DNA of 52,580 bases from the NCBI GenBank assembly GCA_016930835.1, contig JAFGGA010000051.1, positions 1 through 52,580 of the forward strand, written 5' to 3'. Below are positions 11,720 to 29,092 of this stretch, piece after piece (positions within the stretch are counted from its first letter, which is position 1; every line of letters begins with the position of its first letter). A model generated the notes under the pieces. That model was given only the letters and a program-made list of their open reading frames with translations. It was not told the DNA's origin and did not search any database. A program made the position numbers and the translations under genes. Source of the DNA: Deltaproteobacteria bacterium (GTDB lineage: Bacteria; Desulfobacterota; DSM-4660; Desulfatiglandales; HGW-15).

Positions 11720-12294
11720 ACCTGAGCCTCGATTCCTTATTCGATGGGATGGATGTGTTTGATAACGAGATTGTAGTTTTTTTCAAACAACATGTCAAAA
11801 ATGCGGCCTAGTAGGTATGCCAGCCAGAAGGATTAAGGAGATTCAATAACCTGAAGCGCTCTGTCATGTATTCCCTTGGCCGGTAGAATGGAGACATTAT
11901 AACATAATTGATTCCATATGTTGAAGAAATTATTTTCTTGCGATCTTGACCGGCTAATCAAGAGGTGACAGTGATTTTATCCAGCGAATCGTTGAGGGCC
12001 TCATAAGGACCAGCACCACCACCGCATCAAAACGATCCTCACTTGTCTTTTCAAGTTGTAAAAAAAACCGACACATCCATCCGCCCCCATTAAGACCCAT
12101 AAAATGATAACAGCTTTATATTATAGCATAAATAGCCCCCTTAAAATTATGGGATGGAATGATTTTATGGTATATTTTTTGCTCCGATTCACATTGGAGC
12201 CGAGTATGATTAAACCGGTCTTTTGATTGGGTACCCATTTATGGAAATAAAATCTCAATAAAACCACTGTGTCCTGATTGATCAAAATCGATGA
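11720..12294. other. Gene-poor gap upstream of the hybrid kinase
   Basis: No intact gene was seen. On the minus strand, 12060-11958 reads in two frames fragments such as EKTSEDRFDAVVV and GPYEALNDSLDKITVTS before a stop codon. They look like the frameshifted tail of a lost gene that I do not recognise. The rest is AT-rich with many stop codons in all frames. Confidence 0.3.
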
Positions 12295-12689
12295 AACAGG
12301 TGTGTTCTTTACATGAAGGCATGCCCAACAGAGGCTATCCGCATTCGGGACGGGTTGGCTCATATTGAAGGTGAATGTGTCTGGATCTGCCCAAAAAGGG
12401 CCATAAAGGCCATTATCATAGGGGAAAAGACTGCCGATCCAGATCGTTATGCCATGATCAGTTCATCGCCGGCATGTTATGCCCAATTTGGTAGGGGTAT
12501 TTCTCTCAACCCGGTCCTTTTGGCATGAAAAAGATTTCTGGACATGTCTATGATTAAGGCGTTATGGACGAGATATTCAATGTGGTGACGGAACGTTATC
12601 TTGAAGAAAACCGAATGTTAGATGATCCTGTTTTCCCCTAGGTATCTACCGCTTGCCCGGTAGTGAAATCACGTATTTTATCATTTTAA
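12295..12689 (+). pseudogene. Decayed 4Fe-4S/[FeFe]-hydrogenase-like domain protein
   Basis: Frame one reads NRCVLYMKACPTEAIRIRDG, then CPKRAIKAIIIGEKTADPDRY and AQFGRGIS, closely resembling proteins that fuse ferredoxin 4Fe-4S motifs to a hydrogenase large-subunit-like domain. After a frameshift near 12522 the next frame reads KKISGHVYD, a TAA, GVMDEIFNVVTERYLEENRM, and then a TAG before VSTACPVV. The ferredoxin motif has lost cysteines: Tyr sits where the second Cys is expected, and the second cluster motif is shortened by deletion. The frameshift, two in-frame stops, missing N-terminus and missing C-terminal half show that this is a relic. Family members often take part in signalling beside SpoIIE-type phosphatases; none is found here. 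Confidence 0.8.
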
Positions 12690-16926: not shown

Positions 16927-16952
16927 TGACCGGTTTTGGTGAAAACCGGTCA
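16927..16952. terminator. Perfect hairpin after the MFS gene
   Basis: TGACCGGTTTT (16927-16937) and AAAACCGGTCA (16942-16952) form a perfect 11-bp stem with a GGTG loop. No T tract follows on the plus strand and a Shine-Dalgarno sequence comes next. It may be a weak terminator or a translation-control structure for the downstream gene. Confidence 0.45.
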
Positions 16953-16974
16953 GGAGAGGGAGGAGGAATACACC

Positions 16975-18651
16975 ATGCTCTCCATCCTGTTTCAATCCTT
17001 TGGCGGTTTGGGGCTGTTTCTTTTCGGCATGAAGATCATGTCGGAAGGGCTTCAAAAGGTGGCCGGCAAAAAAATGCGGCGGGTACTGGGTCTGGTCTCC
17101 AATAATCGCTTTGTGGGTTGCGGTGTGGGCGCCTTGGTCACCAGTGTTATACAAAGTTCCAGTGCCACAACGGTCATGCTGGTGAGCTTTGTGGACGCCG
17201 GATTAATGACCTTTAAACAGGCTGTGGGCGTTGTTCTCGGGGCCAATATCGGGACCACCATAACCGCCCAATTGATCGCCTTCAATATCACGGCATACGC
17301 CCTTCCCGCCGTCGCCGTGGGGGTTTTCCTCAAATTCTTTTTAGGGCATCGAAGGTGGGTTTATATTGGAGATATCCTGCTCGGCTTTGGGCTGGTCTTT
17401 TACGGCCTGGCCACGATGAAGGCAGGCTTTGCGCCTTTAAAAGAGAGTGCATCGTTTGTTTCATTTATCACGAGGTTTCAGGCAGATTCTTTATGTGGAG
17501 TCACGCTGAGTGTGATCGCCGGAACGATTTTCACCATGATTTTGCAGAGTTCAAGCGCCACGGTCGGCGTGACCATGGCCTTGGCCATGCAAGGGCTTTT
17601 GACCTTTGAAACCAGCGTTGCATTGATATTAGGGGATAATATCGGCACAACCATCACGGCGGAGCTCTCCAGTATCGGCTCTAATATCAATGCCCATCGC
17701 ACGGCCCGGGCCCATACATTGTTTAATGTTATCGGTGTATTCATGATTATCCTTTTTTTCCCGATCTTTTTAACTCTCGTCTCTTTTGTCACCCACACCG
17801 TGATGCAATTCGGACCCCCAGATTTGGTAATCCAGGGGGAAAGACCCAACGTAGCCCGATACATCGCCAATGCCCATACCTTTTTTAATGTAATCAATGC
17901 GGCCATTTTTCTTATGGCCATCCCAATCTTGATGAAGATAGCCACCTGGTTGACACCGGGTAAAGAGGAAAAACCCGAATTGGATGAACTTCACCACGTT
18001 AGATATATGGATGTCAAATTTGTGGAGACCCCTGCGGTGGCGTTGACACAAGCCAGGGCCGAGGTTTATCGAATGGGCGAAGCCGTTCAAGTGATGTTCG
18101 CTGATGTCATCCATTCCCTCAGGGAGCGGAAGGTCAAGGAATTATCCAAATGGCGAAAAAGGGAATATGCCCTGGACGTGCTTCAAAAGGAGATCACCCA
18201 ATTTCTTGTTCGAGTAACTCAAGAGGTCATCAGCCCAGAAGAATCCCGGGAGGTTCGATCCTTGATCCGGATGACCAACAACCTGGAGAGGGTCGGGGAT
18301 GCCGTGGAAGATGTGGCGGAGATGATCGAAAAGCTATTTGAGCGGAATTTGACCCTGTCCGAGGAGGCCATGAAGGATTATGAGGACATATCCAGTGAGG
18401 TGTCTCGGTTTTTATCACTGGTGGTCGATGCCATCAGGCATGATCATGAGGAATTGATGGCAAAGGCCCGAACATCAGAGGACATGATCAACCACATGGA
18501 AGAACAGATGAAAGGGAATCACCTGACCCGTTTACAGAGGGGGGTTTGCAGTATCGACCCGGGGATCATTTTTGTGAACATATTAACGGCTTTCGAAAAA
18601 ATGGGCGGATTTTGTTTTAATATCGCACAGGCGGTAGCCGGATTAAGATAA
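16975..18651 (+). CDS. Na+/phosphate cotransporter family protein with C-terminal PhoU-like domain
   Basis: A 558-residue membrane protein of the Na/Pi cotransporter (NptA/PNaS) family. The two inverted-repeat signatures are present: TSVIQSSSATTVML near residue 60 and ILQSSSATVGVTM near residue 190. About eight hydrophobic segments end near residue 330. Residues about 360-550 form a helical PhoU-like domain, as in bacterial YjbB/NptA relatives, which may control transport or export of phosphate. Start: the ATG at 16975 follows GGGAGGAGG; the frame extends to a TTG at 16936, which I reject. The physiological direction of phosphate movement cannot be read from sequence. Confidence 0.88.
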   Translation: MLSILFQSFGGLGLFLFGMKIMSEGLQKVAGKKMRRVLGLVSNNRFVGCGVGALVTSVIQSSSATTVMLVSFVDAGLMTFKQAVGVVLGANIGTTITAQLIAFNITAYALPAVAVGVFLKFFLGHRRWVYIGDILLGFGLVFYGLATMKAGFAPLKESASFVSFITRFQADSLCGVTLSVIAGTIFTMILQSSSATVGVTMALAMQGLLTFETSVALILGDNIGTTITAELSSIGSNINAHRTARAHTLFNVIGVFMIILFFPIFLTLVSFVTHTVMQFGPPDLVIQGERPNVARYIANAHTFFNVINAAIFLMAIPILMKIATWLTPGKEEKPELDELHHVRYMDVKFVETPAVALTQARAEVYRMGEAVQVMFADVIHSLRERKVKELSKWRKREYALDVLQKEITQFLVRVTQEVISPEESREVRSLIRMTNNLERVGDAVEDVAEMIEKLFERNLTLSEEAMKDYEDISSEVSRFLSLVVDAIRHDHEELMAKARTSEDMINHMEEQMKGNHLTRLQRGVCSIDPGIIFVNILTAFEKMGGFCFNIAQAVAGLR

Positions 18652-18753
18652 AGGCGCAAGGCATCAGGTACACTTAAAACAAAAAGTGCTTCAAAATGTT
18701 TTATTTGAGTATTTCAAGAACGACAAAAAAGGCATATCCATGAGGAGGAAACC

Positions 18754-19368
18754 ATGTTACAACAAAAGGCAACCAATGTGTATTGGCATCATGGAGCGAT
18801 TACGCGCACGGACAGGGAAAGGTTGAACGGCCATCGCGGTTTCACCGTTTGGTTTACCGGTCTATCGGCCGCCGGGAAATCCACGTTGGCCGTCGCCATG
18901 GAAGAGGCATTATTTGAACGGGGATATCACACGTATATCCTGGATGGCGATAACATCCGTCACGGATTGAACAAGAATTTAGGGTTCTCGCCGGAAGACA
19001 GGGAGGAGAACATACGCCGGATCGGTGAAGTGGCGAAGCTGTTCAGTGACTGCGGCATCATCACCATGACGGCATTTATTTCACCTTATCGGCAGGATCG
19101 ACAAACCGCACGATCATTATTTGATGATCATTCCTTTATTGAGGTGTTTGTGGATTGCCCTGTTGAGGTGTGTGAGCAACGCGATCCAAAGGGTATATAT
19201 ACCAAGGCGCGGCAGGGGATCATCCCCTCATTCACGGGGATCAGCGCCCCCTATGAGCCCCCTGAAAATCCGGAAATTCATTTACGCACGGACCAAATGC
19301 CCCTTGCGGAATGTGTTTCCATAATCCTGGAATATCTTGGAAAACAAAAATTTATCCCTTCTCTCTAG
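18754..19368 (+). CDS. cysC: Adenylylsulfate kinase
   Basis: A 204-residue APS kinase that phosphorylates adenylylsulfate to PAPS with ATP in the cytoplasm. The P-loop is GLSAAGKS (residues 36-43), followed by the APS-binding signature DGDNIRHGLNKNLGFSPEDR and EENIRRIGEV, and later IYTKARQG. It is a full-length stand-alone kinase, not fused to CysN. The ATG follows GAGGAGGA. No sat, cysD or cysN is next to it. In a sulfate reducer, PAPS would serve sulfation or assimilation rather than dissimilation; that is inferred. Confidence 0.93.
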   Translation: MLQQKATNVYWHHGAITRTDRERLNGHRGFTVWFTGLSAAGKSTLAVAMEEALFERGYHTYILDGDNIRHGLNKNLGFSPEDREENIRRIGEVAKLFSDCGIITMTAFISPYRQDRQTARSLFDDHSFIEVFVDCPVEVCEQRDPKGIYTKARQGIIPSFTGISAPYEPPENPEIHLRTDQMPLAECVSIILEYLGKQKFIPSL

Positions 19369-19390
19369 GATTTGAAAATTCGTAAAAAAG

Positions 19391-19450
19391 AGAGCCCGAT
19401 TCCTAAATCGCGTTTTCGGATTCACCCCCCGTGATTAGAAAACGGGCTCT
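19391..19450 (-). terminator. Rho-independent-like terminator of the DASS1/two-component operon
   Basis: AGAGCCCG (19391-19398) and CGGGCTCT (19443-19450) pair at the base of a long loop. On the minus strand the stem is followed directly by TTTTTT, a classic terminator tail. It starts 5 bases past the stop of the REC-CBS gene. On the plus strand it may also terminate cysC, though its tail there is not T-rich. Confidence 0.7.
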
Positions 19451-19454
19451 TCAT

Positions 19455-20363
19455 TTACCATAGTCCTCTTTGAATTTTCTCCATCTCAAAAAACAGATCC
19501 TGTTCTCGCAACATGCCCACCACCTTGCCGGCATCCACCACCACCAAGCGCCTGGCATTGTTGGTGACCATTATGTATGAGGCCTCCATGAGGTTGGCAT
19601 CACTCGCGATGGTCAAGGGTGCGGGGGACATGACCTCTTCAATCTTTTTGATGACCAATGCCTGGGTTTCCTTCGTAAACATGCCTTGCCAAAACATGGG
19701 AGAAAATTGAATACTATCCGCCATGGACGGTTTGGGGGCATTAATGTAGGCCGGCATAATGGCCTTAAGAAGATCTTCGATCGTCAATACACCGATCACC
19801 TCTTCATGACGGTCAAACACAAGAATGGAACGATGCCCGGTTTCCATAATTTTACCGGTTGCGACCTTTAAGATAAATGACCGCTTTAAACGTAAGATGG
19901 CCTCTTTGATGGTCTGGTCTTTTTCAATAGTGGTATAATCATCAATGGGTATCATCACATCGCCGACACGCTTTTCAACATAAACATCGCCTTTTTTTTC
20001 GTATTCATATGCTTCCGTGATTTTTGCAACCAATATGTTTATGTCGCAGGGTTTGGCCAGGTAATCAAATGCCCCTTCGGCGAGGGCCTCCTGGGCGGAG
20101 GGTAAGGCTCCGTGGCCGGTCAGCATGATCACGGGCAGATCAGGAGATCTTTTTTTTATCTCCTTTAATGCCTGATGGCCATCCATGCCCGGCATCTTGA
20201 TATCCAGGACAATAACATCGGGATTCTCAGCCAGCTGTTCAATGGCAGCCTCACCGCTTTCGGCCATGATCATTTCAAATCCGCGCTTATCAAGAAGCTT
20301 TTTTGTGGTGATTCGAAATTTTTCTTCATCATCTACCATCAAGACCTTTATCTTTTTACTCAT
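19455..20363 (-). CDS. Response regulator receiver fused to a CBS domain pair
   Basis: A 302-residue protein. Residues 1-120 form a receiver domain with acidic pocket DDEE (11-14), phosphoacceptor Asp54 in VLDIKMPGMDG, and the conserved Lys in LAKPCD. Residues about 130-300 hold two CBS motifs (VGDVMIPIDDYTTI and VMSPAPLTIASDANL), which usually bind adenine nucleotides. A 40-residue insert separates the halves. There is no DNA-binding domain, so output is probably allosteric or protein-protein. It is the last gene of the operon, 35 bases after the DASS transporter, with GGGAGGA before its ATG. It could couple phosphorylation to energy state and act on the transporter; this is inference. Confidence 0.88.
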   Translation of the reverse strand: MSKKIKVLMVDDEEKFRITTKKLLDKRGFEMIMAESGEAAIEQLAENPDVIVLDIKMPGMDGHQALKEIKKRSPDLPVIMLTGHGALPSAQEALAEGAFDYLAKPCDINILVAKITEAYEYEKKGDVYVEKRVGDVMIPIDDYTTIEKDQTIKEAILRLKRSFILKVATGKIMETGHRSILVFDRHEEVIGVLTIEDLLKAIMPAYINAPKPSMADSIQFSPMFWQGMFTKETQALVIKKIEEVMSPAPLTIASDANLMEASYIMVTNNARRLVVVDAGKVVGMLREQDLFFEMEKIQRGLW

Positions 20364-20398
20364 TCCAGTATCCTCCCATATCGGAGATAATATATCGA

Positions 20399-22252
20399 CT
20401 AAAATGGATTAAGTCCCGGCCATCCCAACCAGAGCCAATAAGTGGAGGCCATGAGCATCAAACCGAGCATGTTGGTGACCCAGAGGATAACGCCCACCCT
20501 TAAAAAATCCTTGGAATCCAGATAACCGCCGGCGTATACAATGGCGTTCGGGGGTGTTCCAATGACCAGGCAATAGGCAAAGGATGAAGCAATGGCCGTG
20601 CCCATGGCCATAAAGGGAATCATATGTGTCCCGGGGTGGACGATCCCCGCCATGGCCAGGGTGACCGGGCCCACCGCGGCACAGGCCGGGCCGTCCGCCA
20701 TAATTTGTGTAAGCAGGCCTGTAATTACATTGCCCGTGAGCATGAGGCCCAGGCCATCTGTGATACCTAGAGGTTCCGTCACATCCAATAAAGAACGAGC
20801 GATCCAGTAGGCGCCGCCCGTTTCCACAAGCACCCTCCCAAAGATAATGGCCCCGGCGTAGAGCCAGACTACACCCCAGTCCACCTTGGTTTGATAGTCC
20901 CGCCAATTTACCACACCCGCAAAGATATAGGCGATAGCGCCCATGACGGCTAAAACCCCGATACCGAACCGGATGCCGGTCAGCTTGAGCAGAAGATTAT
21001 TTTCCGTGATCCAACAAAAAAGCATGGCCAGAAAAATGATAATCGATATGATTTGTTGTCGTGACCATTTACCCCCCAATTTGGTGGTCTCATGTTTTAC
21101 AAGAGCTAAGGCATTGCCCAGGTTCCGTACAGAAGGATTGAATCGCTTATTGATCACGAACCATGTCACTGGAATAACAAATATCAAATAAGGAACGCAG
21201 TAGATTAACCATTGTCCGAATCCCATTTGAATGCCGAACATATCTTCCGCGTAATTCATCATGATAATATTTCTGGCAGCACCGGATGGCGCAAGGGATC
21301 CTCCCAGATTACAGGCCATGGCAATGGTGATCATAAGCATCTTGGCAAGCTCAGGATCGTCGTTGCTGGTTGATGCGGTCGAAGCCGTATACAGCAGGAT
21401 CCCCACGGGCAGAAACATGGCGGCCAGGGCATGATCCGACATGAACATGGTGAGGGGAGCGATAATGACGATAATGATCAGCGTGACCCATTTGATATCC
21501 GGATTTTTCAGTCTCCCGAACATCATCATGGCAATGCGTTTATCCACGCCGGTTTTGATAAAGGCGGTAGCGAACATCAGGCTTCCCATGATAAACCAAG
21601 TGGCATCGGACCAATAGAGACTTGCAATGGCTTCCCTTGAGATAATCCCGCTTATCAGGGCGATAATGCCAATACAAAACGCGACCATGGGAAGCGGAAT
21701 AGCCTCCGTAATAAAACACAGGACCACAAATACGACAATCCCCACCGCCATCTTGACCTTAAATCCGGCCTCTTTGGCTTTTGTTTTTTCGCTTTCCTGG
21801 AGATTATTCAAAGCGAGTTTGTCAACTCGCAAGTCAAAACCTTGTTTCATCAATTGAAAAAACGCATCCGACGGGATCTCTTTGGCAAAGGCCATCACCC
21901 GGGCCAGATGTTCTTTGGTGCTTGAGATCCCGTTTTGTTCACACCATCTCTCATTTCTTTTTAAAAAAGAGTTTTGTGAAAAGGCGGATTTATCCACACT
22001 TGCTTCCATCATGCGGACCATCTGTAGTTGCCATTGGGAGAGATCTCCGGTCTTTTTATCAAAGAGCTCTTGAGCGAAAAAGTCTCGCACGTATCTGGGC
22101 CCCATGGTATATTCCACACCCACATCAACCATGCTTTTGGGTGTGGGGATGATGGTTAAGAGAAAAAACGCGCCCAACGGAATAAAAAACAGTTTCCAGT
22201 TGATAAATCGATCATATCCAGTGGGTTTCTTTTTTATCGTTTTATCCGTCAT
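20399..22252 (-). CDS. DASS (SLC13)-family anion:Na+ symporter with large N-terminal insert
   Basis: A 617-residue membrane protein of the divalent anion:sodium symporter family, which imports dicarboxylates, citrate or sulfate. After a first helix (about 22-40) comes a roughly 120-residue soluble stretch before the next helices begin near residue 168, longer than in typical members. Core motifs are ITEAIPLPMVAF, a first hairpin-motif equivalent MSDHALAAMFLP (where SNTAT is usual), GGSLAPSGAARN and the C-terminal VIGTPPNAIVYAGG. It lies in the HK1-RR1 operon. The second half GTPPNA motif is well kept; the first hairpin differs from characterised carriers, so substrate is uncertain. Confidence 0.85.
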   Translation of the reverse strand: MTDKTIKKKPTGYDRFINWKLFFIPLGAFFLLTIIPTPKSMVDVGVEYTMGPRYVRDFFAQELFDKKTGDLSQWQLQMVRMMEASVDKSAFSQNSFLKRNERWCEQNGISSTKEHLARVMAFAKEIPSDAFFQLMKQGFDLRVDKLALNNLQESEKTKAKEAGFKVKMAVGIVVFVVLCFITEAIPLPMVAFCIGIIALISGIISREAIASLYWSDATWFIMGSLMFATAFIKTGVDKRIAMMMFGRLKNPDIKWVTLIIIVIIAPLTMFMSDHALAAMFLPVGILLYTASTASTSNDDPELAKMLMITIAMACNLGGSLAPSGAARNIIMMNYAEDMFGIQMGFGQWLIYCVPYLIFVIPVTWFVINKRFNPSVRNLGNALALVKHETTKLGGKWSRQQIISIIIFLAMLFCWITENNLLLKLTGIRFGIGVLAVMGAIAYIFAGVVNWRDYQTKVDWGVVWLYAGAIIFGRVLVETGGAYWIARSLLDVTEPLGITDGLGLMLTGNVITGLLTQIMADGPACAAVGPVTLAMAGIVHPGTHMIPFMAMGTAIASSFAYCLVIGTPPNAIVYAGGYLDSKDFLRVGVILWVTNMLGLMLMASTYWLWLGWPGLNPF

Positions 22253-22291
22253 TGTCTACCCCAAAAATTGTATTTTTCTGTTAATACCTCA

Positions 22292-22426
22292 TCAAGTACT
22301 GAAGAGCTTTAAAAAACAATAAAGTAAGAACATGACGATGGTGGCATAGAAGAAAAGGCGCCGCTCGAACTCTTTGGAATACGAGAAAACTCCTCTGCGA
22401 CCTGCATGATGCTTTTCCTGAGTCAT
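22292..22426 (-). CDS. 44-residue single-pass membrane protein
   Basis: A short open frame between the RR1 and DASS1 genes. The ATG at 22426 is preceded on the minus strand by GGGAG with suitable spacing. The protein starts MTQEKHHAGRRGVFSYSKEF, has a basic stretch ERR, and then one hydrophobic helix FFYATIVMFLLYCFLKLF before stopping. The charge pattern predicts the N-terminus inside. It fills an otherwise unexplained gap of 220 bases in a tight operon, 40 bases upstream of the transporter start. I know no family for it. A role as a small regulatory or assembly partner of the transporter is a guess from position. Confidence 0.6.
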   Translation of the reverse strand: MTQEKHHAGRRGVFSYSKEFERRLFFYATIVMFLLYCFLKLFST

Positions 22427-22473
22427 ACGATCAGGCTCCCTTCCAAGACATGGGTATCAGAGCGTTATTGAGA

Positions 22474-22923
22474 TCAAACCTCTTCCCTCAATATTTCTCT
22501 GGGTGACTTCATGTATCGCCTGCTTTGGGCCATGCGGATCTTCTCCTCAAGCCTGAGTCTTTTTTCAAAGGCCTCCTCCGCCTTTTGTATGAGATCCGAT
22601 ACATCAGTGGGTTTCATGAGATAATCCGTGGCACCGGCTTTCAGACCATCCACCGCCGACTCCACCGTCCCATGCCCGGTCAGCATGATCACTTCCACCA
22701 GAGGAAATTCGTTTTTGATCGCCCTTAAGGTTTCAATCCCGTCCATGCCGGGCATCTTCACGTCAAGAATGACCACATGAACATTCTGGGAACGCATTTT
22801 CTCAAGGGCCTCTCGACCGCTGCCTGCCGTGACGATGTCATACCCTTTTCTTGAGAGCAGCTTCTCCGTGGTGATTAAAAACCGTTCTTCGTCATCCACC
22901 AACATCATCTTCATTGTTTCCAT
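22474..22923 (-). CDS. Receiver-only response regulator (RR1)
   Basis: A 149-residue protein consisting of one receiver domain plus a short charged helical tail (EEKIRMAQSRRYMKSP). Acidic pocket DDEE (10-13), phosphoacceptor Asp54 in VILDVKMPGMDG, Thr in MLTGHG and Lys in LMKPTD are all present. No DNA-binding or enzymatic output domain exists, so it acts through phosphotransfer or by binding a partner. It follows HK1 by 65 bases and is presumably phosphorylated by it. The ATG is preceded by AGGAGG. Confidence 0.9.
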   Translation of the reverse strand: METMKMMLVDDEERFLITTEKLLSRKGYDIVTAGSGREALEKMRSQNVHVVILDVKMPGMDGIETLRAIKNEFPLVEVIMLTGHGTVESAVDGLKAGATDYLMKPTDVSDLIQKAEEAFEKRLRLEEKIRMAQSRRYMKSPREILREEV

Positions 22924-22988
22924 AATACTTCCTCCTGTTGCTTCCTTACGCCATCATCCCGAAAAGACAAATTTCCATATTACGACAT

Positions 22989-24674
22989 TCATCCAGCCAC
23001 AGGAAAACGAATCGTAAAAGTCGTGCTTACACCCTGTTCACTGCGCACCTCCATGGTGCCGCCCATATCATGAATAATGCCGTAGCAGATGGATAATCCC
23101 AATCCTGTGCCCTTACCGACCGGCTTTGTCGTAAAAAAGGGGCTGAAGATCTTTTTAAGATTTTCCGGGCTGATGCCAATCCCGTTATCCGTAACCGATA
23201 CTTCTGCTTTTCCGTCCTCCGTGGGGCCGGCCTGGATATCGATGTGTCCCCCGCTGACCCCGTGTCGGGTAGTAATGGCATCAATGGCATTGTTAAATAA
23301 GTTGATGAAGACCTGTTGCAATTGTCCTGAATCTCCGCGGATAAAGGGCGTATCACTTAGTATCTCTTGATTAATCTGAATACCATGAACACTTGCCTTT
23401 TGATCTATCATGGCCACTACCTCAGGCAAAAGTCTTTGAAGATCAATGTCTTTAACCACGGGTTCCCCCTGTCTGCCGAACTTCAATATGGCCTGGGTAA
23501 TCTTGGTGCAACGGGCGATCTGGATATGAATTTCATTCAAGGAATCTTCAAAATCCGTCATCAACTCCGATCCCTTTAGATCGCCCTTTTCTTTCAGTTC
23601 CGCCCATATATCCATCATCAGGGCCTGTTCATTATTGATAATCTGAAGGGGGTTGTTGATTTCGTGAGCAAATCCCGCGGCCATCTCACCAAGCTCCGCC
23701 AGGCGGGTAGCGCGAATCAGTTGACCACTCAGATTTTCCCTATCGGCCTCCATTTGTTCCATCTGCCGGATAATCCGATCCGTTCTATAAAAAGCGAGAC
23801 CCACGATAAGAACCCCGGCAATGACCATGATCAGCACGATCAGGTAACTGGCCGATCGAAGTGCCTTAAAGGCATCTTCCTTCTGCTGCCTGACAACCAG
23901 GATCCAATCTCCCTCTTTCAGCCATATGGTTGCATAAAGATATTTTTCACCATCTTCCGCATTGGCCAAAAAGGTCCTAATCCCAGAGTGATGAGAAGGG
24001 TATTTAAGGTGATCGGGATCTTCACTCATCAGGCTTCCTCCGGATCGCCGTTCTGTTTGAAAGATTCCATCACGGTTTAAAATATACGATTCCCCGGTTT
24101 TGCCGATACGGAACTTTTTCACCAGATCATTAAACATGAACGTATCAATAGTGGCTCGAATCACCCATGTTTCACCATCTTCCACCTTAGCCATGGCGAT
24201 GATAAAATGGGGAATATTCCGATATCCCAAAAAGATATCACTGATGTAATATCCCTTTTTAATAACCTCCTTAAACCACTCCATTTCGCCATAAATCCTA
24301 CCCGTCAATTGGTAGGGTCCATAATAGGCCACATGGATTCCATCTCCATTAAAGACGCCCAAGTCCACGAATGCATTGGAGCCTTTCTGAAGATTCACAA
24401 ATACTTCCTGGAGCCTCTCCGGGTCTTTGAGGGTATGGTATGAGGAGGAATCGCAGACCAGCCTGAGGTCAGCCTTCCGTTCATTGAGAAAGGTTTCGAT
24501 CATCTGACAGTGATCACCCACGATACGTTGCATACTCGCAATGGTGCTTGATTCGATGGAGGTGGTGAAGTAGTAGTATCCGACGGCCAAGATGATCAGA
24601 AGGGGAATGACGGGCACCAGGACCATGCTGGCCAGGATGTTTTTTCTCATTGATTTGTAATGATTTTTTTCCAT
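22989..24674 (-). CDS. Membrane sensor histidine kinase with Cache-type sensor (HK1)
   Basis: A 561-residue kinase. Helices at about 12-36 and 270-295 bracket a periplasmic double-Cache-like sensor containing YGPYQLTGRIYGEMEWF and GYRNIPHFIIAMAK. The cytoplasmic part has HisKA with the phosphoacceptor in AAGFAHEINNPLQ (His337), N box NLFNNAIDAI, G1 DNGIGI and G2 GKGTGLGLSICYG. It resembles the DctB-type kinases that sense organic acids. The frame extends to a TTG at 24683, but the ATG at 24674 is preferred; the Shine-Dalgarno match is weak either way. A sigma-54 promoter ends about 30 bases upstream, which makes this the first gene of a five-gene operon. It is paralogous to HK2. Confidence 0.9.
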   Translation of the reverse strand: MEKNHYKSMRKNILASMVLVPVIPLLIILAVGYYYFTTSIESSTIASMQRIVGDHCQMIETFLNERKADLRLVCDSSSYHTLKDPERLQEVFVNLQKGSNAFVDLGVFNGDGIHVAYYGPYQLTGRIYGEMEWFKEVIKKGYYISDIFLGYRNIPHFIIAMAKVEDGETWVIRATIDTFMFNDLVKKFRIGKTGESYILNRDGIFQTERRSGGSLMSEDPDHLKYPSHHSGIRTFLANAEDGEKYLYATIWLKEGDWILVVRQQKEDAFKALRSASYLIVLIMVIAGVLIVGLAFYRTDRIIRQMEQMEADRENLSGQLIRATRLAELGEMAAGFAHEINNPLQIINNEQALMMDIWAELKEKGDLKGSELMTDFEDSLNEIHIQIARCTKITQAILKFGRQGEPVVKDIDLQRLLPEVVAMIDQKASVHGIQINQEILSDTPFIRGDSGQLQQVFINLFNNAIDAITTRHGVSGGHIDIQAGPTEDGKAEVSVTDNGIGISPENLKKIFSPFFTTKPVGKGTGLGLSICYGIIHDMGGTMEVRSEQGVSTTFTIRFPVAG

Positions 24675-24702
24675 AGCAAACAAACTCGTAATAAATACTT
24701 AA

Positions 24703-24718
24703 GGCAATCTTCATGCCA
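24703..24718 (-). promoter_or_regulatory. Sigma-54 promoter of the HK1-RR1-DASS1 operon
   Basis: Minus strand TGGCATGAAGATTGCC. It matches the sigma-54 consensus TGGCACG-N4-TTGCW with the required 10 bases between GG and GC. Predicted start is near 24692, just ahead of the HK1 start codon. The same element occurs before the second operon at 28954-28969. Confidence 0.75.
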
Positions 24719-25125
24719 TGTATCAATAGTCCGAGCGCATTGTTAACCAGCTGATATGACTAATGTTGTTCTGAGGTTGCGCGTGTTGGATAAAATGACT
24801 TTACCAATAAGCTGTCGGGGGATTTTACAGGGTGTAAAACTTATGGAAAAAAATAATTGTACCGGCATGAAAAAATCTGCATCACTAACAAAGAGATATT
24901 TATGGAAACAGGATATGCGGGATCTATTCGTTTTTGAAGTAGGGGATGAACGTATCCATTCAGGACAAAACGGATCGGTTCCCGATTCCCTTATCACCAT
25001 TGGATAAATCATGGAATGTGTACATGGTTTTAGGGAAAAAGATAAGGCAACCACTCATCCTAAAACAATGAAGAGGTAGGTAAGGACGAGGACTTGATCG
25101 GTCCGGTCGATTTTTCTTTAAGAGA
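24719..25125. other. Regulatory gap between the two signalling operons
   Basis: It contains the upstream palindrome at 24823-24839 serving the HK1 operon, and the 3' end region of the RR2 operon. No convincing gene is present: a plus-strand frame at 24843-25007 lacks a ribosome binding site and resembles nothing known. A possible short hairpin around ATCGGTCCGGTCGAT (25097-25111) lies just past the RR2 stop. Confidence 0.45.
24823..24839. promoter_or_regulatory. Upstream activator palindrome of the HK1 operon
   Basis: TTTTACA-GGG-TGTAAAA, a perfect 7-bp inverted repeat with a 3-base spacer. Its centre is about 115 bp upstream of the -24 element of the sigma-54 promoter, the usual place for an enhancer-binding protein. 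An identical palindrome with a different spacer (GTT) lies at the same distance from the other sigma-54 promoter. Confidence 0.65.
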
Positions 25126-25554
25126 TTACCAGTATTTTAATGCTTCTTTTATCTTGGCCCTGCGGATCTTTTGATCATGGGCATCTTTTTTTTCAAATGC
25201 CGATAATAGCTTGGGAAGCAGCTCCTCCAGTTTTACGGGTTTAAGGAGGTAGTCAAAGGCACCCAGCTTCATCCCCTCAATGCTGGTTTCCACGGATGCG
25301 TGACCTGTCAACAGCAGAACCTCGGTCAGGGGCTGGAGTCTCTTGATTTCCCTGAGCGTCTCGATACCGTCCATCCCTCCGGGCATCTTGATATCCAGTA
25401 TGACAATATCAATGGGTTTTTTCTTGATGATCTCCAAGGCTTCTTCACCACTTTTGGCGCCATGCGTATCGATCTTTCTTTTTTTAAGACGATTCACCAG
25501 GGTCTCTAAAAAATCCTCTTCGTCATCCACGACGAGTACGCTAAAAAATTCCAT
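25126..25554 (-). CDS. Receiver-only response regulator (RR2)
   Basis: A 142-residue single receiver domain with a short basic tail (KIRRAKIKEALKYW). Acidic pocket DDEE (10-13), phosphoacceptor Asp54 in VILDIKMPGGMDG (one Gly more than usual after the turn), LLTGHA and LLKPVK are present. There is no output domain. It is last in the DASS2-HK2-RR2 operon and is closely similar to RR1. It is likely the phosphorylation target of HK2. The ATG has a Shine-Dalgarno sequence AGGAGG. Confidence 0.9.
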   Translation of the reverse strand: MEFFSVLVVDDEEDFLETLVNRLKKRKIDTHGAKSGEEALEIIKKKPIDIVILDIKMPGGMDGIETLREIKRLQPLTEVLLLTGHASVETSIEGMKLGAFDYLLKPVKLEELLPKLLSAFEKKDAHDQKIRRAKIKEALKYW

Positions 25555-25640
25555 AGTTCCTCCTTTTCTTGATATTCAATTCAACCGACCAATAATTATA
25601 CATGAAAACTATATTATCGTCATTCGTCCTCTATTTCACT

Positions 25641-27302
25641 CTATTTTTTTTCAGGCGTCACCATGGGGATAGATACGGTAAATATGGTCCCCTGATCGAC
25701 CTGGCTTCTAAACTGTATGTTCCCGCCGAGTTTTTGCATGATATCATAACTGACCCATAGCCCCAAACCGGTTCCCCGTCCTGTCTCCTTGGTGGTAAAG
25801 AAGGGATCAAAAATCTTACTTTGCAGGTCATCCGGAATACCCGGGCCATTGTCTATGATCTGGACTTCAATACTGTTCTGCACGCATTTACTCACGATTC
25901 TTACGATTCCATCCTTATTGATGGCGTCAATCGCATTGGATATGAGATTTAAAAACACCTGCTGAAGCTGAGCCTGCTCACTGGCGATAATGGGAATGTC
26001 TGCGGCCAGTTCGGTTGTTATTTCAATATTATTGATCCGGGCGTAGTTTTCAAGAAGATTGATGGTCTGTCTGAGTGTGCTATTTATATCCACATCTTCA
26101 AGATGCGGCTCCATCTTACGAGCGTAACCGAGCATATTATGGACGACCTTTCTGGCCCTTTCCACATGCTCTTCGATCTTTTTGATCGATGTCCTGAATT
26201 CATGGAGATTTTGACTTTGCTTAAAATCCTCGTCCTCCAAGAGATCTTCCATCCACCCGGTCTTCTGCAGTATGACAGCCAATGGATTGTTGATCTCATG
26301 GGCCAGACCTGCGGCCATCTTTCCCAAGGCAGCCATCTTATCGGACTGGACCAATTGTGCGTTTAATTCATTCATTTTATTGTCGGCAGCGCGTAAACCG
26401 CTGATAGCCAGGAATGTTGTAAAAATCGTGGTCAGGACGATGGCAAGGATACCGGCTAGAATGATAATAACCTCCATGGTTCGCGTGGCCAGTAATCCTC
26501 TCATCTCTTCCTTGACTTCCTGATTGATCACCAGAAGCCAGGTATTGTTTTTTAACCAGGCCCCGGCATACAGTATCTGATTGCCGTTGCCGTTAGTCAT
26601 TTCAATGACGCTTGTTTTTCCACCAAACAGGCTTGTGTCAAGATTTGATTTGGATTGGATATCAGCCCCGAAACGCGGTTGTGTCTGATAGATACCCTCT
26701 TTATTGATAATATAGGCATCGCCGGTTTTACCGACCTGGGCCGCCTGGACGATATTTCCAAAGATATAGGGGTCAATGGTGGCCCTCAAGATCCAACTTT
26801 GATCATTCTCCTGCCGACGGACGGCGATGATAAAGTGGGGGATCTGCCGATATCCCATATACACATCACTGATATATATCCCGCGGCTCATGACCTCACC
26901 GAACCATGGTTGTTGAAAATAGTTCAATCCTTCAAGATTATATGGGCCCACATAGGCCAAGTGCCTGCCGGCATTGTCGATCACCCCCAGATCCACAAAG
27001 GCGCCTGCATGGGTATTCATAACCTGAAAGATATTATTGAGTTGGCGACCGTCAGTCATGTCCATGAAACGATGAGTGTCAGCCATGGCGGACAGTATCG
27101 CCGTTCGTTCCTTTAAAAACAGTTCCAATGCCTCCGCTTGCGCCGTGGCACGATAAATGATCTGTTCTTCTATTTTGACTTGATATATCTCCGCGAATTG
27201 GTAATAAATAACGGCACCCAGGATGATTAAAGGTGCCAGGGAAACCACCAGTGTGATGAGGATAATTTTTCGCTGCAGAATGGAATATAAATTGGTTTTC
27301 AT
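25641..27302 (-). CDS. Membrane sensor histidine kinase with Cache-type sensor (HK2)
   Basis: A 553-residue kinase paralogous to HK1. Two helices (about 12-35 and 275-300) flank a Cache-like periplasmic sensor with YVGPYNLEGLNYFQQPWF and GYRQIPHFIIAVRR. The cytoplasmic part shows AAGLAHEINNPLAV (phosphoacceptor His335), NLISNAIDAI, DNGPGIP and GRGTGLGLWVSYD. The frame reaches 27326, but the ATG at 27302 overlaps the DASS2 stop codon as ATGA, so translation is probably coupled and I take this start. The GYRxIPHFIIA segment shared with HK1 suggests related ligands. Confidence 0.9.
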   Translation of the reverse strand: MKTNLYSILQRKIILITLVVSLAPLIILGAVIYYQFAEIYQVKIEEQIIYRATAQAEALELFLKERTAILSAMADTHRFMDMTDGRQLNNIFQVMNTHAGAFVDLGVIDNAGRHLAYVGPYNLEGLNYFQQPWFGEVMSRGIYISDVYMGYRQIPHFIIAVRRQENDQSWILRATIDPYIFGNIVQAAQVGKTGDAYIINKEGIYQTQPRFGADIQSKSNLDTSLFGGKTSVIEMTNGNGNQILYAGAWLKNNTWLLVINQEVKEEMRGLLATRTMEVIIILAGILAIVLTTIFTTFLAISGLRAADNKMNELNAQLVQSDKMAALGKMAAGLAHEINNPLAVILQKTGWMEDLLEDEDFKQSQNLHEFRTSIKKIEEHVERARKVVHNMLGYARKMEPHLEDVDINSTLRQTINLLENYARINNIEITTELAADIPIIASEQAQLQQVFLNLISNAIDAINKDGIVRIVSKCVQNSIEVQIIDNGPGIPDDLQSKIFDPFFTTKETGRGTGLGLWVSYDIMQKLGGNIQFRSQVDQGTIFTVSIPMVTPEKK

Positions 27303-28885
27303 ATCAATCCCAATATCTTCCACCACACGGCCGCCACCAAGATAAGGATCGCCAATAAGACAGGGGTTGCCACCATACCGGCCTTGGTAAGGTCCGAGGC
27401 CTTAAAATATCGATAGCTATATGCAATGGCATTAGGCGGACAACCGATAACCAGAAGCATGGCAAATGAGGTGGCCGTCCCAAGGCACAAGGCCAAAACA
27501 GTGGGATTGACGCCCTCCAATTGCGCTATCGGGATTACGATGGGCAATATCAAGGCAGCTGCGGCCACATTGGCCATGGCGTTGGTCACCAAGGCCCCAA
27601 AGACGCCCACACCGACAAATAACAGCAACCAACCACCCCCTTTTACCATGGGAAAGAAGAGATGGGCGAAATAATCCGCGGCCCCGGAAGACCCCATGGC
27701 CAGACCCAGGGATATCCCGCCACCGAAGATAAACAAGGCCGTTCCCCATTCCAGGTTTTCATGGATATCTTCCCATTTGAGCACCCCGGATATGACCAAT
27801 GCACCGACACCCAACATGCCCGGGATGGAATAATCCATGCCGTGCCACCCTTTTGTAAGCCACAGTGCGAAAACAATCATGGTAATGATAAGGGTTTTTT
27901 TCTCCAATGCAGTCCAAGGGCCCAGGTCTTCCTCAAATTTCGGCAGCTTAAAAGATTTATCCGGGCGGAAGACCAAATACACGACACCCACGGCCGCGGG
28001 TACGGTCAATAAGGCGGCGGGCATGGCGTACTTGATCCAATCAAAAAAGCTGATTTCAATGCCCGTGTATTCCTTTAAAAAAGCGGCGGCGACCATACAA
28101 CGTCCCCCGCCGATAAGAGATCCCATCCCACCGCAAGAGCAGGCAAAGGCCAGAGAGATCAGCATAAACTTAGCTGTATTGGTATGCGGATCAATCCCCA
28201 CGGACCTCATTAAAGGGAGCATGGTCACGATCCCGATGGCGGTAGCGGCGGCATCGTGCATAAAAGCCGAGGATACACCCAGACCGATGGAGATAATAAA
28301 TGTAAAACGCACCACACTGTCTCCGGCCTTTTTCGTTATAAAATACCCTAGACGTTTTGTCAGGCCGGCCTTATCCAAGGATACGGCAAAGATCAGACAA
28401 CACATGATAAAGACCACCACCGGATGCATATAGGATGCCCAGATATCTTTCACATCACCCACACCCATTATGACTAAAAATACGCCGATACCAATGGCCG
28501 TAATCTCCAAAGGGATGGGCTCCAGGATAAAAAGAAATAGCAAGAACGCCAACACGGCTAGAAACCGCATGGCCTTTGGTGACAGCCCGTCCACATAGTC
28601 CACCTGAATACCCACCATACTTAGCTCTTTGGCCTTGGCTTTTAAGAATGCCCCACCGGATTCCTGGCCTCCGGGATTTTTTGATTCAATGATATAGGCT
28701 GGAGGCGGTCCCGCTTTTGTGGAAAGGATGTTAAAATGACTCTGGATATTTATCATAAATGTCTGAGCGTCTTCTCCCGTTATGCGGAACTGTTTTCCTT
28801 CAGGCCGTGGAAGAAGCAGAACCACCGCGCCAAGCGCAAATGCCAAAACCAATTGAACCCCTTTTCTTTTTAGAACCATATTCAC
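27299..28885 (-). CDS. DASS (SLC13)-family anion:Na+ symporter (DASS2)
   Basis: A 528-residue membrane transporter of the same superfamily as DASS1 but a different branch. A first helix (about 10-25) is followed by a soluble insert of about 80 residues, then about 11 helices. Core motifs are LEPIPLEITAIG, MHDAAATAIGIVTMLPL in the first hairpin, CGGMGSLIGGGRCM, and VIGCPPNAIAYSY in the second. It is the first gene of the DASS2-HK2-RR2 operon, under a sigma-54 promoter. The kinase beside it suggests that the transporter's substrate is also the signal. Dicarboxylate, tricarboxylate or sulfonate/sulfate are all possible. Confidence 0.86.
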   Translation of the reverse strand: MNMVLKRKGVQLVLAFALGAVVLLLPRPEGKQFRITGEDAQTFMINIQSHFNILSTKAGPPPAYIIESKNPGGQESGGAFLKAKAKELSMVGIQVDYVDGLSPKAMRFLAVLAFLLFLFILEPIPLEITAIGIGVFLVIMGVGDVKDIWASYMHPVVVFIMCCLIFAVSLDKAGLTKRLGYFITKKAGDSVVRFTFIISIGLGVSSAFMHDAAATAIGIVTMLPLMRSVGIDPHTNTAKFMLISLAFACSCGGMGSLIGGGRCMVAAAFLKEYTGIEISFFDWIKYAMPAALLTVPAAVGVVYLVFRPDKSFKLPKFEEDLGPWTALEKKTLIITMIVFALWLTKGWHGMDYSIPGMLGVGALVISGVLKWEDIHENLEWGTALFIFGGGISLGLAMGSSGAADYFAHLFFPMVKGGGWLLLFVGVGVFGALVTNAMANVAAAALILPIVIPIAQLEGVNPTVLALCLGTATSFAMLLVIGCPPNAIAYSYRYFKASDLTKAGMVATPVLLAILILVAAVWWKILGLI

Positions 28886-28953
28886 TCCCTGAACATATTG
28901 ATTTCAATCATTAAGGATGGAGAAGAAATCATACAACATGACATTTTTAGATG

Positions 28954-28969
28954 GGCAATACCCATGCCA
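28954..28969 (-). promoter_or_regulatory. Sigma-54 promoter of the DASS2-HK2-RR2 operon
   Basis: Minus strand TGGCATGGGTATTGCC, an excellent sigma-54 -24/-12 match with 10 bases between GG and GC. It differs from the HK1 operon promoter only in the N4 spacer. Predicted start is near 28942, about 57 bases ahead of the DASS2 start codon. Confidence 0.78.
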
Positions 28970-29075
28970 AAAAAAGTGAAAGGGGCATATTGAATTAACT
29001 GTATGAAATGATGCTGGTTTTGAATTTTTAAGAGGCTTGCTGACTCACCGTCTCCACAATCTCTTTGTCGATATT

Positions 29076-29092
29076 TTTTACAGTTTGTAAAA
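29076..29092. promoter_or_regulatory. Upstream activator palindrome of the DASS2 operon
   Basis: TTTTACA-GTT-TGTAAAA, centred about 116 bp upstream of the -24 element. Both arms are identical to those at 24823-24839. It also lies 75 bases past the 3' end of the P-type ATPase gene, where it has no obvious other role. Confidence 0.65.

Follow-up and report, generated by a model that had tools for sequence, protein, structure and literature searches.

A conserved sigma-54 enhancer and its candidate activator EBP4 at paralogous DASS transporter operons, with a probable role in sulfate uptake and activation

How are two neighbouring operons controlled that encode anion transporters and sensor kinases but no DNA-binding regulator? 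The window analysed here is one whole contig (C101; 52,580 nucleotides) of a draft genome of 4.7 Mb in 224 contigs. On its minus strand, operon 2 (DASS2-HK2-RR2) encodes the DASS-family anion transporter DASS2 (27299–28885, with a GTG start at 28885 or an ATG start at 28879), the dCache sensor histidine kinase HK2 (25641–27326, domain search) and the receiver-only protein RR2 (25126–25554, 142 aa, domain search). Operon 1, on the same strand, encodes the dCache sensor histidine kinase HK1 (22989–24683, the likelier start being the ATG at 24674), the receiver-only protein RR1 (22474–22923, 149 aa, domain search), a 44-residue protein (22292–22426), the DASS-family anion transporter DASS1 with an N-terminal extension (20399–22252) and, as its last gene, a REC-CBS-CBS protein (19455–20363; PF00072 and, twice, PF00571). 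A probable intrinsic terminator, read in the sequence as a hairpin AGAGCCCG...CGGGCTCT followed by a T run, lies 3' of operon 1 on the minus strand (19385–19450). The original prediction, made from the letters of this DNA, had described two minus-strand operons with matching parts, promoters and palindromes, and the genes and domains are as it stated. The two are indeed adjacent on that strand, but instead of lying "back-to-back" they are arranged in tandem, head to tail, with operon 2 preceding operon 1.

DASS1 and DASS2 both score above the cut-off of TIGR00785, the DASS sodium-coupled anion symporter family (220.2 and 220.6 bits, cut-off 198.6), and match PF00939, with only 27% identity to each other over 433 aa. 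HK1 and HK2 share the architecture dCache-HisKA-HATPase, 36% identity over 560 aa and, as had been noticed beforehand, the stretch GYRxIPHFIIA; the similarity claimed for the two receiver-only regulators likewise holds, at 48% identity. Each module gene has its own separate set of orthologues in other genera, at 55–80% identity, so the paralogy of the two modules is old. The "duplicated system" of the original prediction is therefore correct as far as paralogous modules go, but not as a recent duplication, since these old paralogues are shared across genera. Only eight close relatives of DASS1 were found, some of them labelled Omnitrophota or Planctomycetota; those on the metagenome-assembled contigs L119, L121 and L125 (64–70% identity; labelled Omnitrophota, Planctomycetota and Phycisphaera) point to horizontal transfer, unless the bins are mislabelled or contaminated. 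The 44-residue micro-protein, which has a single membrane span and the pattern G[VI]..[FY][ST]K..ER..FF..T..M, is conserved beside DASS1, with homologues in other loci: in several genera its ORF adjoins DASS1, on either side of the transporter gene, and it is possibly an unrecognised small subunit. Converging on operon 1 from the plus strand are a Na/Pi-cotransporter-like gene and a CysC-like APS kinase gene (16936–19368), relatives of which occur near the same cluster in L076 (both) and L074 (the cotransporter).

The heads of both operons carry the same regulatory element. Without mismatches, TGGCAYG-N4-TTGC occurs twice in the whole window, at the heads of operon 1 (TGGCATGAAGATTGCC, 24703–24718, minus strand) and operon 2 (TGGCATGGGTATTGCC, 28954–28969, minus strand), each time in the form TGGCATG-N4-TTGCC and in exact agreement with the -24/-12 consensus TGGCAY-N5-TTGC. 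The perfect palindrome TTTTACA-N3-TGTAAAA has only two copies in the 4.7-Mb genome (24823–24839 and 29076–29092), each upstream of one of these perfect sigma-54 promoters at a gap of 105 or 107 bp, whereas shuffles of the window give an expectation of 0.18 palindrome matches even when two mismatches are allowed. These exact-match counts in window and genome show that the pairing of promoter and palindrome is real and far beyond chance. The shared element exceeds the palindrome, because GACA stands at exactly +7 in both copies, which gives the composite enhancer TTTACA-N3-TGTAAA-N7-GACA (operon 1, 24813–24838; operon 2, 29066–29091; both on the minus strand). A third, decaying copy with one mismatch lies on the plus strand (12048–12073), with a degraded promoter TGGTATATTTTTTGC 105 bp downstream and a short 4Fe-4S ORF (12313–12528) that resembles the remnant of a larger gene; together (12048–12528) they are probably a decayed member of the regulon.

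This element is widespread among relatives. The survey pattern (TTTACA-N3-TGTAAA, a gap of 85–115 and TGGCAY-N5-TTGC) was present in 35 of the 85 genomes of the order and in 49 of the 394 genomes of the phylum, spanning 15 families, and a reversed control pattern was found in no genome of the same two surveys. A class-level survey added nothing, as the class comprises this order alone. Across the 135 enhancer sites collected, each with a sigma-54 promoter downstream, GACA follows the palindrome after exactly seven bases in 113, and the flanks are otherwise without conservation. GACA was also considered as the -35 box of a sigma-70 promoter, but no conserved -10 region follows it (positions 26–83 of the sites). 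The distance between enhancer and promoter has two modes, about 104–110 and 95–98 bp, roughly one helical turn apart, as expected of an enhancer that needs to face its promoter. The element is thus a conserved palindromic site in the place expected of an activator site, about 100–150 bp upstream.

HK1 orthologues, sought independently of the element, gave the same picture: 29 were found in 28 of the 85 genomes of the order, and all 15 that head an operon have the element just upstream (at most one mismatch), followed in 14 cases by a canonical sigma-54 promoter at the expected spacing. Of the other orthologues, some are internal to longer operons, where RR2 or related genes precede them, and some adjoin a contig end. 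Orthologous operons without promoter and palindrome, which had been named in advance as refuting the proposed common sigma-54 control, were absent among these 15, and the proposal is supported.

A sigma-54 promoter with such an enhancer calls for an activator, and the original prediction placed it at a distance on the grounds that the local regulators have no DNA-binding domain. Domain search found none in RR1, RR2 or the REC-CBS protein, so that a local DNA-binding regulator is ruled out as the activator, and there is now a specific candidate elsewhere in the genome: EBP4 (G000:C216:20726–22153), encoded on contig C216. It has the REC-AAA-Fis HTH architecture (PF00072, PF00158, PF02954) and the GAFTGA motif, as in activators of the AAA+/Fis-type HTH class. 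Its locus encodes an additional DASS protein (DASS3; 149.9 bits, below the TIGR00785 cut-off of 198.6), a kinase and EBP4, followed by an enhancer with one mismatch and, 108 bp further on, a perfect promoter TTGGCACATCCGTTGCT / TTGGCACATCCGTTGC; this TTGGCACATCCGTTGC promoter, 3' of EBP4, heads a cluster encoding kinases, receiver-only proteins, a TauE/SafE permease and a PPDK-like protein. An EBP4 orthologue (62–100% identity, with a shortened copy in some genomes) is present in all 49 enhancer-bearing genomes of the phylum compared with 91 of 394 overall (Fisher p = 1.4e-37, uncorrected for phylogeny), and its gene lies within 34 of the 119 site-bearing loci (loci of up to 20 kb). In the order survey, seven EBP4 genomes were without the strict composite, and seven composite-bearing genomes, mostly fragmentary, were without a detected EBP4. 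The closest paralogue, EBP8, was rejected as the activator, being present in only 11 of the 49 enhancer genomes. EBP4 itself scores below the cut-offs for the NtrC equivalog (TIGR01818; 484.1 against 558.6 bits) and for PrsR, the PEP-CTERM response regulator (TIGR02915; 422.8 against 502.6 bits), and is therefore a member of the NtrC type in its own right, without an established name.

The genes found behind the sites point to the function of the regulon. Within 6 kb downstream, the commonest encode dCache kinases, receiver-only, DASS, TauE/SafE, CBS and Usp proteins. At seven sites, one in each of seven genomes from three families, sat or aprB comes first among the downstream annotated genes of usable length, with aprA and qmoA-like genes next in some of these loci; representative Sat, AprB and AprA proteins score above their NCBIfam cut-offs, and the chance expectation of such sites is well under one if one assumes, roughly, that 2 of 1500 operons are of this kind. 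EBP4 also tracks aprA, which is present in 74 of 80 EBP4 genomes compared with 30% of genomes without EBP4. The genome of the window has aprA, and its sat/apr promoter would lie off a contig end. At the level of sequence, these targets and this co-occurrence tie the regulon to sulfate respiration; against this, about one site in five is followed by genes without an evident sulfur link. As the targets comprise DASS and TauE transporters together with sat and aprBA in some relatives, the regulon most likely serves sulfate uptake and activation. Two further arrangements were seen: a set of three genes that recurs in the EBP4 regulon (L085:1–3996) and encodes a TauE/SafE permease, a 228-aa protein that matches no Pfam family and a PPDK_N/PEP-utilizers protein; and, in family f9 (L173, L175, L183 and relatives), a regulon that starts with Usp, TauE, DUF4881 and a 260-aa protein instead of DASS, which suggests that the transporter type is exchanged under the same regulator.

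DASS transporters also carry dicarboxylates, and the regulon might sense energy or carbon status instead of sulfate, with its DASS proteins carrying organic acids. Usp, CBS and PPDK-like genes recur among the targets, acyl-CoA-ligase-like genes occur there as well, and the fold of the sensor is a generic dCache, with solved relatives that bind amino acids and organic acids; we nevertheless consider this reading unlikely, because sat and aprBA are direct targets, EBP4 goes with aprA, and related Desulfosarcina DASS clusters are assigned to sulfate in the section that describes them (PMC11887813). The shared control with sat/aprBA and that published assignment suggest sulfate as the substrate of DASS1 and DASS2. 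For the sensor, PF02743 scores above its cut-off and the predicted structure (pLDDT 89) matches dCache domains with a Z score of 21; the search for PDB sequence relatives gave none that is convincing, and the fold search returned generic dCache domains only. Among its 27 invariant columns, R118, H122 and R139 (construct numbering) could, judging from conservation, hold an anion.

The abundance of kinases raises a further question about how signals reach the activator. Kinases and receiver-only proteins are the commonest members of the regulon and no DNA-binding partner is encoded beside the kinases, as would suit a scheme in which EBP4 receives its phosphate directly from the dCache kinases, with the receiver-only proteins serving as phosphate sinks that modulate its activation; against this, a kinase adjoins EBP4 in nearly every locus read, and we give the scheme roughly one chance in four. 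That another co-inherited regulator, a repressor or a different activator, binds the palindrome while EBP4 is a mere genomic neighbour is improbable: the genome does hold 34 strong sigma-54 activator domains and EBP4 binding is itself predicted, but EBP4 accompanies the enhancer in 49 of 49 genomes of 15 families and adjoins its sites while its nearest paralogue reaches only 11 of 49, and both the distance of the site, about 106 bp upstream, and its helical phasing are in keeping with an activator rather than a repressor.

We therefore favour, with good though not full confidence, the reading that EBP4 and sigma-54 together control both operons, as part of a regulon through which sulfate is taken up and activated. 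Computed directly are the shared element and its geometry, the fact that it co-occurs with EBP4, the target genes and the architecture of RR1 and RR2; from them we infer EBP4 binding and the role of sulfate. Based on this reading, we propose the following hypothetical multistep mechanism in which (i) the dCache sensor may read a small external molecule; (ii) the kinase encoded next to EBP4 presumably phosphorylates it; (iii) EBP4 would bind TTTACA-N3-TGTAAA and probably also GACA, a half-site that lies two helical turns away from the first one; (iv) from about 106 bp upstream, or one helical turn less, EBP4 would open the -24/-12 promoter by looping to the sigma-54 RNA polymerase; (v) the output would comprise DASS/TauE-type anion transporters, dCache kinases, receiver-only and CBS proteins and, in some relatives, Sat and AprBA; and (vi) the receiver-only proteins would signal by protein contact to the transporters, the CBS proteins or the kinase of EBP4. 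More tentatively, and with odds that we put below even, EBP4 might be a dedicated, phylum-wide activator of sulfate respiration that acts through one composite enhancer on both uptake (DASS, TauE, PiT) and activation (sat, aprBA-qmo); arrays of dCache kinases and receiver-only proteins would then adjust its output not at the DNA but through the transporters or the kinase of EBP4.

Parts of this system have known counterparts. In a 2025 study, Desulfobacteraceae clusters that combine DASS transporters, Cache kinases, response regulators and CBS proteins are interpreted as a system for sensing and taking up sulfate (PMC11887813), so neither the gene content nor the sulfate reading is new. Compared by the gene content described there, the cluster of Desulfosarcina variabilis and other sulfate reducers resembles the operons of the window in combining DASS, a Cache kinase and a CBS protein; in contrast, its regulators are called WalR-type, whereas RR1 and RR2 are receiver-only. 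The section on that cluster names no sigma-54 promoter, enhancer or activator, and the EBP4/sigma-54 regulon is proposed here. NtrC-family sigma-54 regulons of Desulfovibrio vulgaris (PMC3333781, PMC4641369; LurR, PMC6456213) likewise have REC-AAA-Fis activators, -24/-12 promoters, palindromic upstream sites and small regulons that include transporters. The LurR site is, in contrast, of the GTCCGCTTTTCAAGAC type (PMC6456213), and the main text of PMC3333781 and PMC4641369 contains neither the TTTACA/TGTAAA motif nor sat, apr or qmo targets. Transcriptional control of sulfate activation is also known from Rex, which represses sat in D. vulgaris (described in PMC7531388); Rex is an NADH-responsive repressor, whereas the system proposed here is an activator/sigma-54 system that also covers transporters. 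A literature search, covering the main text of largely open-access papers, found no publication of the enhancer, the activator or the link to sat/apr.

In summary, the sigma-54 regulon is real, well conserved and of a known type, its activator candidate is newly identified, and a role in sulfate uptake and activation is probable. Since the enhancer is confined, in the phylum survey, to EBP4 genomes and precedes sulfate-activation genes in relatives, it probably represents a conserved, undescribed control of sulfate respiration. Sulfate-reducing bacteria carry out a large share of sediment carbon and sulfur turnover, and to our knowledge little is known of the regulators that switch on their sulfate uptake and activation. 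With an activator named, a DNA element of high specificity and targets that include sat and aprBA, this question is open to simple experiments, and the enhancer motif can be used to find the regulon in any new genome. Such a regulon would account for the control of clusters that are rich in sensor kinases but without DNA-binding regulators.
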